Source: a virus
Virus record (IMG/VR): IMGVR_UViG_3300024518_001883
Coordinates: 1-26,391 of that record
Strand: one strand, 5' to 3'
Length of the DNA: 26,391 nt
Shown: in pieces, positions 22,607 to 26,391 of the stretch
How the letters are laid out: every line of letters starts with the position of its first letter
Position numbering within the stretch: the stretch's first letter is position 1
The notes under the pieces: model-generated
What the model was told of the DNA's origin: nothing
The model's input: the letters and a program-made list of their open reading frames with translations, nothing else
Database searches by the model: none
Translations under genes and position numbers: made by a program

Positions 22607-23679
22607 ATCCAATTAGACCGGGTAGCCATAAATACCCGACCAATCAACGCCTCAACATCTCTTTAGCCTTTGCCGACAACAAAAACCGTTGGCAGCGCGC
22701 AGCGTTTCGCATCAATGAAATTATTGAGCGGATCCCACGCATAAAGCTAGATGTGCCAGATAACGAAGCGCCAAAGGTAACTAAAAAAGAAAAGCGCACT
22801 GCTACACTTGCGCGCAATAAAGCTGACACTGCTTATTTATTGGCGAATAGTGATTTTGAAGTGCCTGCTATAACAGTGTGCAAAGAACTTGCCATAATGC
22901 AAAACGCTGTGCGCTACGAATACAAACTAGACAGCACCATGATGGATGCGACAATGGATGCTATTCGCCGTATTTTAGTGGGTGATATTCTTAGTGGCTC
23001 AGAGTTTTGGACTACTCGATTCTTTCTTAATCCAAACCTTAACGAAGCTAGTAAAGATGGACTAACTGATAGTTTTATTTCAGCATTGCGCATAACCGAA
23101 GGAACGAGCGCAGAGGCATCACTAGCAACCCTCAGTGCAGAACAGCAACTTAGCCAGCCTGCTTACTTAGACCGTTTACGATTGGTTCACGGTCGAACGT
23201 TTGAAAGCATGAAAGGCTTAACCGATGATATGACCGCACAGTTACGTGTCACACTAACTGAGGGAATGGCGCGTGGTGTTGGTGTTCGTGACCTAAAAGG
23301 TATGATTAATAACCGCCTTGGGATCGGGATGGGTAGGGCTGAAAGGATTGCAAGGACTGAGATTAATAACGCTTACACTAATAGCTACATGCAAGAGTCC
23401 ATAGACTTGAACGAAACAGCGCTAAAGGATGACGAGTGGGTTATTAGGCAGGCTCACCGTAGTGCGCTATCACCAACAACAAGAAAGACTCACGCGGCAA
23501 GGCACGGCACAGTGTCAACAGTCGCGGCTCAATTGAATTGGTGGGCTGAGAATGGGCGCATAAATTGCCTTTGCTCGACTCTTGACGTATTGGTAAATAA
23601 AAAAACTGGCGAGATATTGCAAGATAAAATGATTAAGACTATGAAGATACAGAAAAAAGAATGGTTTCCTAGTAAATAA
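22603..23679 (+). CDS. Head morphogenesis protein (Mu gpF / SPP1 gp7-like)
   Basis: 358 residues. The C-terminal third has MGRAERIARTEINNAYTNSYMQES, followed by VIRQAHRSALSPTTRKTHAARHGTVS and ENGRINCLCSTLDVLV. These are the conserved block of the phage Mu F-like / SPP1 gp7 minor head protein family: R-x2-RTE, R-x-THAA-x-HG and W...INCLC. Such proteins are minor capsid proteins placed beside the portal and sometimes injected with DNA. The N-terminal part (about 1-200) is charged helical, with an ADNKNRWQRA segment. It directly follows the portal gene, as in other phages. Confidence 0.9.
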   Translation: MNPIRPGSHKYPTNQRLNISLAFADNKNRWQRAAFRINEIIERIPRIKLDVPDNEAPKVTKKEKRTATLARNKADTAYLLANSDFEVPAITVCKELAIMQNAVRYEYKLDSTMMDATMDAIRRILVGDILSGSEFWTTRFFLNPNLNEASKDGLTDSFISALRITEGTSAEASLATLSAEQQLSQPAYLDRLRLVHGRTFESMKGLTDDMTAQLRVTLTEGMARGVGVRDLKGMINNRLGIGMGRAERIARTEINNAYTNSYMQESIDLNETALKDDEWVIRQAHRSALSPTTRKTHAARHGTVSTVAAQLNWWAENGRINCLCSTLDVLVNKKTGEILQDKMIKTMKIQKKEWFPSK

Positions 23680-23690
23680 AAGAGGTAGTT

Positions 23691-24074
23691 ATGATACAAA
23701 CACAAAACTTTAACCCAATAAGCGATCCTAAGTTGCTTTGTACTTGCGGTCATCCTGATTGCGATAAGAGAAGTGTTAGCCAGTTAACGCTAAACTATGC
23801 GCAATCAGTTAGATGGAAAGTAAACCGATCACTAACTGTAACAAGTGGAGGGAGATGCCCGAACCACCCCAACGAAGTGCATAGAGACAAGCCAGCAGAC
23901 CACCAAAAACAAAAAGGTATTGATATAGCTTGTAATGGTGGTGCTGAACGCGGTGAGCTTGTGCGCGTAGGTATTGAATGCGGATTTAATGCAATCGGAG
24001 TTGGTAAAACCTTTGTTCATTTTGGTATTCGCGAAGAATTGCCAATGGGTCAAATTATGATGTGGAGTTATTAG
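23691..24074 (+). CDS. Endolysin, peptidase M15 family (D-Ala-D-Ala carboxypeptidase-like)
   Basis: 127 residues; AGAGGTAG ribosome site. Motifs: SGGRCPNHPN near residues 52-61, HQKQKGIDIA near 71-80 and TFVHFGIR near 107-114. The likely zinc ligands are His71, Asp78 and His110, spaced like the M15_3 phage endolysin domain. It cleaves peptidoglycan stem peptides or cross-links. The loop DHQKQKGID is a variant of the usual S-x-H-x-x-G-x-A-x-D motif. An N-terminal C-T-C-G-H-x-D-C pattern is an unusual short zinc-like unit. The holin follows after 1 base. Confidence 0.88.
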   Translation: MIQTQNFNPISDPKLLCTCGHPDCDKRSVSQLTLNYAQSVRWKVNRSLTVTSGGRCPNHPNEVHRDKPADHQKQKGIDIACNGGAERGELVRVGIECGFNAIGVGKTFVHFGIREELPMGQIMMWSY

Positions 24075-24075
24075 C

Positions 24076-24528
24076 ATGAGTTGGATAACAGAATTGTTTT
24101 CATCGTCAGTAGGTACGATAATCGAAAAGGCAGGCGGTGCAATTGATAGTCTTGTAACATCAGACGAGGAACGGCTAGCGCTAAAAAACGCACTACAAAA
24201 GATAGCTAACGACGAAAAAGCAGAAGCTAATCGACATGTGGAAGCGCAAGAAAAGGCTGTAACAGAGCGCCATAAAACAGATATGACGTCAGATTCATGG
24301 CTATCCAAAAACATTAGGCCGATGGCTTTGATATTTTTAACGGTTTCAGTTGTGGCGCTTGCTTACTTTACTGTTTTTTCTGACTCGATTAAGCAAGGCG
24401 TACTAGATAGTTGGATTGACTTGTTCACAGGCTTGTTAATGCTTGTATACGGCTTTTACTTCGGTTCAAGAGGTCTTGAAAAAATATTTGCCTTGATGGA
24501 AGCGCGTAAAACTAAAAATAAAAGTTGA
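24076..24528 (+). CDS. 3TM holin (GTA_holin_3TM family)
   Basis: 150 residues. N-terminal amphipathic segment with a weakly hydrophobic stretch (SWITELFSSSVGTIIEKAGG), then charged helix (SDEERLALKNALQKIANDEKAEANRHVEAQEK), then two strong membrane segments near residues 82-101 (PMALIFLTVSVVALAYFTVF) and 114-131 (WIDLFTGLLMLVYGFYFG), ending GLEKIFALMEARKTKNKS. This is the pattern of the 3TM holin superfamily found beside M15 or lysozyme endolysins. It would form the lysis pore that lets the endolysin reach the wall. Translation is probably coupled to the endolysin gene. Confidence 0.85.
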   Translation: MSWITELFSSSVGTIIEKAGGAIDSLVTSDEERLALKNALQKIANDEKAEANRHVEAQEKAVTERHKTDMTSDSWLSKNIRPMALIFLTVSVVALAYFTVFSDSIKQGVLDSWIDLFTGLLMLVYGFYFGSRGLEKIFALMEARKTKNKS

Positions 24529-24553
24529 CACTTTGGATTATTAAGAATATATT
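24525..24553 (+). promoter_or_regulatory. Consensus sigma-70-type promoter at the end of the holin gene
   Basis: TTGACA (24525-24530), 17-base spacer, TATATT (24548-24553). The -35 lies over the holin stop. It is one of the best promoters in the window and has no gene for about 500 bases downstream, so it probably makes an RNA starting near 24560. Confidence 0.8.
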
Positions 24554-24636
24554 TAAATCTCTTAACAGGCAGTTATCTTTCGTTTCTAGGTGGAGAATGT
24601 GACCATGGACTAACCGAATTAGATTTACCCGACAAG

Positions 24637-24748
24637 ACTGAGTAAACAGTAAATCCGTAAGCTTTGAATCGTGAAAGCGGTGCAGGAGGTGGCTGCCCTG
24701 GGCTTCGTAAGCCAAACTGAGTAACCCAAACTGAGTAAACAGTAAATC
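24637..24748 (+). repeat. 19-bp direct repeat in the non-coding region
   Basis: ACTGAGTAAACAGTAAATC occurs at 24637-24655 and 24730-24748, exact copies; a partial copy ACTGAGTAA is at 24716-24724. They lie in the 5' part of the structured region and flank two short hairpins (24661-24678 and 24701-24713). Confidence 0.9.
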
Positions 24749-25058
24749 AAGAAATAGTAATCTCTCTTACGTAAAAATAAGGAAGGTGATAAATCTCCCG
24801 CGCAGGGTTAAGCGTATGTTAAATGCGTTTGAATATAGGCGGTAGTTAGGTTCGACTCCTGTTTTAAGCTTTTACAGTTAAAATCTTACCAGATTTACCA
24901 GAGCGCACTGCAGATAAAGACGAAAGCGAGACTGCATAAATATCGCTAAAGGGCAAGGTTTAAATATTTCGATATCCCAAAAGAAAACCAAGACAAGGCG
25001 ACTCGCACACGCGAGCAACTACCATTAACTTTTAACTAAATGACAGGAATTAATTATT

Positions 25059-25280
25059 ATGAGAAAAATAAAAACAACAAAACGCCAACGCAAAGCAGTC
25101 AAAGGCTTAAACTCGGCATGTTTTCATAGCTTAAACCGCGGATCAGAGATTTTAATCTCAGGTGTCGAATACCTTGGTCAAACTCCAGTCTTTAAAGACT
25201 TAAATGCAAACGCTGCTGGCTTGCTCCCGAACTTCGTGAAGGTTCAAAAGGGCATTCCATTTGTTCGAGTAGCAGGTTAA
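25059..25280 (+). CDS. Hypothetical basic phage protein inside the structured region, 73 aa
   Basis: ATG 25059 has AGGAA about 9 bases upstream. The N-terminus MRKIKTTKRQRKAVKGLN is strongly basic; the rest SACFHSLNRGSEILISGVEYLGQTPVFKDLNANAAGLLPNFVKVQKGIPF looks like a folded beta-rich domain. It may bind the RNA in which it lies or be an unrelated small protein. It is flanked by two hairpins with the same loop (GCACACGC at 25014-25021... and 25298-25305). No family is recognised. Confidence 0.55.
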   Translation: MRKIKTTKRQRKAVKGLNSACFHSLNRGSEILISGVEYLGQTPVFKDLNANAAGLLPNFVKVQKGIPFVRVAG

Positions 25281-25754
25281 GCGTTGACCAAGTGACCGCA
25301 CACGCGGGTATTTTTAAGTGTGTTTACTGCCTTCGGGTTCGGTCACAGGCATGATGTAGAAGCCTGTTATAAAGGTAGCTTGAATCAACAAGCATTACGC
25401 AAACGGCCTTGTGAATACACTTAAAAATAACCACTCACACTCAATTATCAAGAGAGTGACACAGCGTATAGTAACTTTGTTGAGTGGTTACACTAAATAA
25501 CCCATAGCCCGTAACGGCTGAAAACTAGCAGCTCGCCCCAATGAGTTAAGCGACTACAGATAGAAAATAAACAAAGGCCATCATACATGGCACCGCAAGA
25601 CAGATAGCGGCTCCTCTTTGTTGTTGGCGGATTAATTACCCGCCTATTCTTACTGTTTTCGTATGCAAAAGGCAGAGTCCCGTTTCTGTATGTTTCAACG
25701 GGTATTGACTCTCATTAATGGTAGTGATGCCAGAGCCGAAAGAATCACGCAATT

Positions 25755-25778
25755 AAACCGCTCTTTTGCGGTTTTTTT
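25755..25778 (+). terminator. Strong rho-independent terminator
   Basis: AAACCGC (25755-25761), loop TCTTTT, GCGGTTT (25768-25774), T-run to 25778. It closes the structured region and separates it from the tail-fibre-like gene. Confidence 0.9.
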
Positions 25779-25823
25779 GTGCCTGTAATAAACTGTATGC
25801 TAATTTATAAAGAAGGAATTCAA

Positions 25824-26391
25824 ATGGCAGAGTATCCAGACCCACGCCCATCATCACAACCAGAGGGCTCAACAGCAATGGTTGTGGCCAAAGATAACTT
25901 GATCACACTTGATAAAATGGCGGTATCGTCCGACCCTACAGTTACTAACCGCAAGGGGCAGGTGTTAACTACGTTTATAGGAGCGTCTGACAAAATCGAC
26001 GCTGATGTACTGTTAGTTGACTCAGCAAAAGACCAAGCAATCATTGACATTAATGCAGATGTAGCCACTGTTGATAATGCAAAAGACCAAGCTTTAATTG
26101 ATATTGCGGAAGATGTTGCAGAAGTTAATGCTGCTGCGGTGGTTGCGGTGTCAGATTTTGAAGCGTTAGGCCAAGACGCTATTGATGACTTTAACGCTAA
26201 CGGCGATACTGCTCTAGGAGCTTTGGGCGGTGTCCACATCGGAGAATACTCAACAGACCCATTAATCACTGAGCGCAATCAATACGTAACATTCGGGGTA
26301 TCACCAACGGCCACACAGTGGAAAATAACAGGTTCAACATCTTTAAATTATCAGATTGATTCTACAACATACCCTGATCCAGAAAACGACC
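25824..26391 (+). CDS. Tail-fibre-like protein (5' part, cut by window edge)
   Basis: ATG 25824 with AGAAGGA 6 bases upstream. About 189 residues are visible, open to the edge. It starts MAEYPDPRPSSQPEGSTAM, then KDNLITLDKMAVSSDPTVTNRKGQ. Such an N-terminal pattern (short Pro-rich start, then TVTNRKGQ) resembles the adaptor regions of phage tail fibres or tailspikes. Residues 58-100 are helical repeats (VDSAKDQAIIDINADVATVDNAKDQALIDI... type, with repeated AKDQA-IDI units), compatible with a trimeric coiled coil. From about 135 on the sequence becomes beta-rich (YVTFGVSPTATQWKITGS). Function: host recognition, inferred. Confidence 0.75.
   Translation, partial: MAEYPDPRPSSQPEGSTAMVVAKDNLITLDKMAVSSDPTVTNRKGQVLTTFIGASDKIDADVLLVDSAKDQAIIDINADVATVDNAKDQALIDIAEDVAEVNAAAVVAVSDFEALGQDAIDDFNANGDTALGALGGVHIGEYSTDPLITERNQYVTFGVSPTATQWKITGSTSLNYQIDSTTYPDPEND

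Follow-up and report, generated by a model that had tools for sequence, protein, structure and literature searches.

A candidate family of large structured phage RNAs with a conserved 3′ core and exchangeable 5′ inserts

Introduction

What does a tailed marine phage make from about 1.2 kb of DNA that begins at a promoter, ends at a terminator and separates a holin gene from a tail-spike-like gene? The question arises from a viral record of 26,391 bases, IMGVR_UViG_3300024518_001883, which we analyzed whole and call the window. Its gene content is that of a tailed phage: replication genes lie on the minus strand and are followed on the plus strand by genes for terminase, portal, head morphogenesis, endolysin and holin. 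The unit, at 24525–25778 on the plus strand, has the holin gene (24076–24528, plus strand; phrog_3427 holin, E 8.7e-28) on its 5′ side and the start of the tail-spike-like gene (25824–26391, plus strand) on the other. A sequence-only reading had proposed that the unit encodes a large structured noncoding RNA (ncRNA), possibly a GOLLD or ROOL RNA. Of the bacterial and phage RNAs for which we know of no function, GOLLD and ROOL rank with the largest.

The claim that this is a large structured phage ncRNA is supported by synteny, by conservation of the promoter and terminator, and by strong compensatory change. We put a probability of about 0.6 on the region being the gene of a new family of such RNAs, trans-acting and of the GOLLD/ROOL functional kind.

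Results

The unit occupies an equivalent place in related phages. Eight relatives were found, five through synteny or protein similarity and three through a short motif scan. The head-morphogenesis protein led to viral contigs L087 and L088 (77–78% identity), after which L106 and then the Vibrio phages LP.1 and pYD21-A were added; scanning with a core motif of ~20 nt returned L120, L136 and L127. The sequence-only reading had called for such a homologue search, and in all eight relatives the unit lies directly upstream of a tail-spike-like gene. The N-terminus of the window's tail-spike-like protein is conserved in relatives, as its alignment with L087 and the pYD21-A tail spike shows. Wherever upstream genes were inspected, the unit comes after head and lysis genes, and synteny is kept in the window, L087, L088, L106, L120, L136, L127 and pYD21-A. 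LP.1 holds a minimal form of only ~280 nt, comprising promoter, core and terminator with the entire 5′ region absent, so a member of the RNA family need not be large.

Broader searches added no further relatives. The region had no match to phage records by DNA similarity, and a search of genomes for the tail-spike N-terminus found none. Matches of L088 and pYD21-A to other phages were confined to tRNA genes; Vibrio phages 115E34-1 and 1.060.A, matched through a tRNA only, were set aside. An exact 16-mer of one strand of the long-range helix described below occurs in 85 viral contigs, which we take as chance, and the contigs fetched among these had no blastn match to the region. Scanning genome contigs with the core motif gave eight matches, none of which held the core on inspection. 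Across 395 genomes of one order, model R3 found no full core and gave four weak matches of 20–25 bits, of which three contain the pseudoknot module.

The conserved part of the unit is a structured 3′ core. It spans 25528–25750 on the plus strand, ~220 nt with about ten helices, among them a hairpin and a three-way junction, and a terminal pseudoknot, and it aligns end to end between the window and all eight relatives. Five sequences were aligned by MAFFT, variable loops were trimmed by hand and the structure was drawn with these sequences already in view; changes on both sides then affected 27 of 50 pairs, against 4–9 for slid strands and 0 of 500 shuffles. In all nine sequences 38 of 49 named pairs changed on both sides and 93% of cells pair, against 34–47% when slid, in an alignment (A9) that was fitted to the structure and is therefore circular in part. 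The nulls are slid strands, swapped strands and shuffles, computed without a tree. Such counts bear out the compensated pairing noticed in the single sequence. The three-way junction picked out at 25570–25622 also stands, as it appears in the minimum free energy (MFE) fold and is backed by covariation.

A covariance model recovers the core in sequences held out of it. Model R1, built from five sequences, scores the window at 185.4 bits. The held-out L120, L136 and L127 score 119.4, 110.8 and 107.8 bits, these three having been chosen by the ~20-nt motif inside the core, and LP.1 scores 52.7 bits; the structure of the held-out sequences had already been looked at before model building. For LP.1 a sequence-only model gives 18.3 bits, so this relative is recovered clearly only because structure was used. 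The five-sequence count and the held-out scores are less circular than A9 or the hand-picked helix strands used below. The MFE fold of the window core alone recovers most of the same nested helices, including the three-way junction. Folding energy alone is weak evidence for a structured RNA here, with a modest z = -1.66 for the core and z = -3.0, from only 20 shuffles, for the upstream part. On the comparative evidence, the nine loci show a structured RNA element that is selected for its fold and whose place, promoter and terminator are conserved.

The core closes with a covarying pseudoknot. In the window (25719–25748, plus strand) the loop GTGAT of a hairpin at 25719–25732 pairs with ATCAC at 25744–25748, and the pseudoknot is present in 9 of 9 sequences. 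All four counted pairs have double changes, with 97% of cells paired; own strands pair at 46 of 46 positions against 51% when swapped, the strands for this and the later helix swap test having been hand-picked after viewing the sequences. The strands themselves differ among phages: GTGAT/ATCAC, ATGTC/GACAT, TCTAC/GTAGA, ATGAC/GTCAT, CTGTAA/TTACAG, ATTGC/GCAGT and GGTTC/GAACC.

The pseudoknot motif also recurs outside the relatives. A search of 395 genomes from one order finds it in 8, against 0 for a reversed control pattern; 24 viral contigs also have it, the relative L120 among them. Most such records (L155–L165, L167, L169–L171, L173–L175, L177–L186 and L188) hold it in a compact element just 5′ of early prophage genes, which mostly starts CGTCTGGTATATGCG and contains GAAATATACAAGCC. 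In L155 and L157 the element lies 3′ of an ORF read as RdgC-like; six such records were searched and have one copy each, and no Rfam match was obtained where tested. The environmental phage contigs L168, L172 (4740–5460) and L176 have a tRNA-Trp directly upstream of a shorter RNA in which CTTGCT, GCC and the terminal pseudoknot recur, with terminase genes downstream of it in L172 by ORF reading. Either homology or convergence could account for the module in both prophages and the core. A new phage-RNA superfamily with a portable 3′ pseudoknot module (GGTARTnnCGCCnnnGGCGAMAGAG...) as its common basis is an unlikely extension; the module would then be the core of cargo-bearing marine-phage RNAs, whose large forms would assemble into tRNA/ribosome-carrying particles at lysis, as well as a compact element before early prophage genes.

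A promoter and a terminator bound the unit. The sigma70-like promoter TTGACA-17-TATATT (24525–24553, plus strand), as first read, matches the consensus at 11 of 12 positions, is the top such site within 23500–26391 and overlaps the 3′ end of the holin gene. Matches of 11/12 recur in L087, L088 and LP.1, with 10/12 in L106 and a weak 9/12 in L120, L127, L136 and pYD21-A. The intrinsic terminator at 25755–25778 (plus strand) has the stem AAACCGC-6-GCGGTTT and a T-run as described earlier, and a hairpin with T-run lies at the equivalent place in the relatives (9 of 9 sequences in all, the L106 hairpin read by eye). Consensus scans alone are near chance, at 7 promoters against 5.1 expected and 3 terminators against 2.9 expected, so these calls carry weight because they are conserved in relatives.

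The same layout raises the possibility of a cis-acting leader, in which the promoter would start a tail-spike/capsid operon and the folded RNA would control read-through of the terminator. In lambda, pR′-6S RNA-tR′ with Q is a leader whose terminator read-through is controlled; a nascent-RNA antiterminator such as HK022 put, which acts on RNA polymerase in cis, is another precedent. The order promoter, core, terminator and tail spike holds in 9 of 9 sequences, and the short LP.1 form carries nothing else. In pYD21-A capsid and tail genes come after the tail spike, downstream of the unit, which makes a leader a serious reading, and the copies of the pseudoknot module that lie shortly before early prophage genes look cis-acting. 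Against it, TATAAT-like boxes 3′ of the terminator in LP.1, L120 and L136 suggest a possible separate promoter for the tail-spike gene. Inspection by eye revealed no alternative partner for the terminator stem that is conserved, and a riboswitch-like terminator/antiterminator switch was set aside on that ground. HK022 put and lambda 6S do lie, as this RNA would, between a phage promoter and terminators, but neither has tRNA or ORF inserts, and a 1.2-kb unit with both kinds is unlike them. Put has two stem-loops in ~70 nt (PMC9378689), far from a ~220-nt core of about ten helices and a pseudoknot. We regard a leader as the chief alternative, though a tentative and somewhat unlikely one on this balance.

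Upstream of the core, the unit varies in length and content. The variable 5′ region (24554–25300, plus strand) has short blocks common to some relatives. At its end, just 5′ of the long-range helix, is a small hairpin, CCGC-ACAC-GCGG (approximately 25296–25307, plus strand), with CCGC/GCGG in six sequences and CCCT/AGGG in L088. The 13-bp long-range helix, in which 25309–25321 pairs with 25417–25429 (plus strand), is exactly as first described and lies inside an inverted repeat of 22 nt with 86% complementarity. It is present in seven of nine sequences, where own strands form 110 of 111 pairs against 62% when swapped. An optional second helix, AACCACTC...GAGTGGTT (25432–25490, plus strand), is also found in L127, L087 and L088, with a compensatory change in an alignment read by eye.

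Between these helices and the core lies a place for tRNA insertion (25497–25527, plus strand). L088 has a tRNA-Met (CAT) there, L120 a tRNA-Trp and L087 a degenerate tRNA-Leu-like gene; the window, L106, L136 and L127 have none. pYD21-A has a tRNA-Gly upstream of the core, and the tRNAs of L088, L120 and pYD21-A have an encoded CCA. The earlier hint of a tRNA element thus holds for the family, four of eight relatives having a tRNA or tRNA-like gene, and fails for the particular T-arm-like site on which it was based. That site, at 24846–24862, forms four of five stem pairs, has no counterpart at the equivalent position of L088 and L127, the relatives nearest to the window in the 5′ part, which excludes it as a conserved part, and would arise once in such a stretch by chance about 7% of the time by our estimate. 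Extra T-arm-like hairpins outside annotated tRNAs occur in L120 (~base 190 of the RNA), pYD21-A (L090, ~10590) and L176 (~720), and are possibly tRNA remnants.

Small ORFs occupy a similar cargo position. The sole plus-strand ORF of at least 60 aa inside the window's unit is, as noted before, a 73-aa ORF, here at 25059–25280; it is basic, has the Shine-Dalgarno sequence AGGA and had no relatives in viral contigs, phage records or a family search. In L088 its leader and start are conserved and the ORF body differs. ORFs with ribosome-binding sites are 73 aa in the window, 67 aa in L088 and 31 aa in pYD21-A; none was found in L087, L120 or LP.1, and they differ among the other relatives, leaving no conserved ORF. 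Hydrophobic peptides of 43–56 aa stand in the cargo position in L106 (11873–12043), L136 and L127. The L106 and L136 membrane peptides are homologous (48% identity), L127 has a similar one, and the L106 peptide had no match in Pfam or PHROG. Across the nine loci, the comparison establishes that the core is structured, that its place, promoter and terminator are conserved, and that inserts are exchanged.

Such inserts would also suit a tRNA/small-protein operon with a structured 3′ UTR. The tRNA or the peptide would then be the useful product, and the role of the core would be limited to 3′-end protection or transcript maturation. The encoded CCA of three tRNAs and the homologous membrane peptides favor it. 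Against it, L087 has only a degenerate tRNA-like gene, both kinds of insert are missing from LP.1, and conservation of the core does not depend on the insert; we judge such an operon improbable.

A further block of the 5′ region, ATAAGGAAGGTGATA (24778–24792, plus strand), is complementary to the 3′ end of 16S rRNA and has no well-placed start codon. It is the same in L088, L127 and L120, with a variant in L136, and its duplex energy is matched by 7 of 200 shuffles in the window and 0–3 of 200 in L088, L120, L127 and L136. That it binds the ribosome is a guess from complementarity.

The unit resembles known large phage RNAs in layout and matches none of them in detectable homology. GOLLD has a conserved 3′ region, a variable 5′ region and tRNAs sometimes in the linker (PMC12286853). 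GOLLD RNAs are of phage origin, exceed 800 nt, contain pseudoknots and sometimes have a tRNA inside or near (PMC12286853), and here the core at 25528–25750 is conserved, the 5′ region is variable and absent in LP.1, and tRNA or tRNA-like genes occur in four of eight relatives, though not in the window. ROOL is likewise a large structured phage RNA, often near tRNAs. However, the Rfam covariance-model search that the sequence-only reading had proposed did not support its suggestion of membership: GOLLD and ROOL models gave no match at E up to 5 in the window, up to 10 in the 1.26-kb region and up to 1 in the loci of five relatives. GOLLD's 3′ region is also about 410 nt, against about 220 nt for the core, and the 5′ and 3′ regions of ROOL are described as intertwined, whereas here the 5′ region is dispensable (LP.1). 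A further trait of GOLLD is its homo-oligomeric nanocage. Despite the shared layout and setting and the nearby tRNAs, a divergent GOLLD, ROOL or other catalogued large RNA missed by the models is highly improbable given the lack of matches at permissive thresholds in window and relatives. No Rfam family convincingly matches the window, the isolated region or, tRNA genes apart, the relatives.

Other phage RNAs share the setting. The transcript that Vibrio phage ICP1 makes most abundantly is an ~800-nt ORF-less RNA encoded next to its lysis genes (PMC7567579). Its Vibrio-phage origin, position and lack of an ORF are points of resemblance, but it differs in having no tRNA and no Rfam match above the gathering score, and model R3 reached 5.4 bits at best with filters off, so it was rejected as a relative of the core. 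In the Vibrio/Shewanella phages 1.076.O and 1.210.O a 750–930-nt gap (L102:5319–6066 and L103:5922–6851) adjoins a tail-spike-like gene. It contains a single tRNA (Trp, Pro), a terminator, a block complementary to 16S rRNA, and a hairpin plus TATTTTTAAG stretch similar to ours. The orientation of their spike-like gene differs, however, and R3 with filters off finds no 3′ core, which rules them out as core relatives. These gaps carry a different 3′ domain and a strong 16S-complementary block, CGGGAGGTGATCA (0 of 200 shuffles). A literature search found no description of the RNA family, most subscription journals and bioRxiv holdings being outside its coverage. The best reading of these comparisons is a new RNA family that would have GOLLD-like anatomy and no detectable kinship.

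Discussion

A new, trans-acting ncRNA best accounts for the unit as a whole: it has compensatory changes, its own promoter and terminator, and no conserved ORF. A sigma70-like promoter at the end of the holin gene would start an RNA of ~1.2 kb, probably one late transcript acting as RNA, that ends at the intrinsic terminator ahead of the tail-spike gene. Its 3′ 220 nt would fold into a multi-helix core closed by the pseudoknot, a stable scaffold perhaps serving late in infection. In the variable 5′ part, tRNA genes and small ORFs would replace one another as inserts, held in part by the long-range helix. As proposed for GOLLD and ROOL, the RNA may work in trans and, instead of coding for protein, hold or present a cargo of tRNA, small mRNA or perhaps ribosomes; the tRNAs may also be passengers. 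This trans-acting reading is weakened because the core sits directly before the terminator and tail-spike gene every time, as a cis leader would.

Two members, LP.1 with its minimal form and the isolate pYD21-A, would make the RNA family experimentally testable, and the alignment and covariance model are a starting point for an Rfam entry. An unrelated family with the layout of GOLLD and ROOL would mean that phages have reached such a design more than once.
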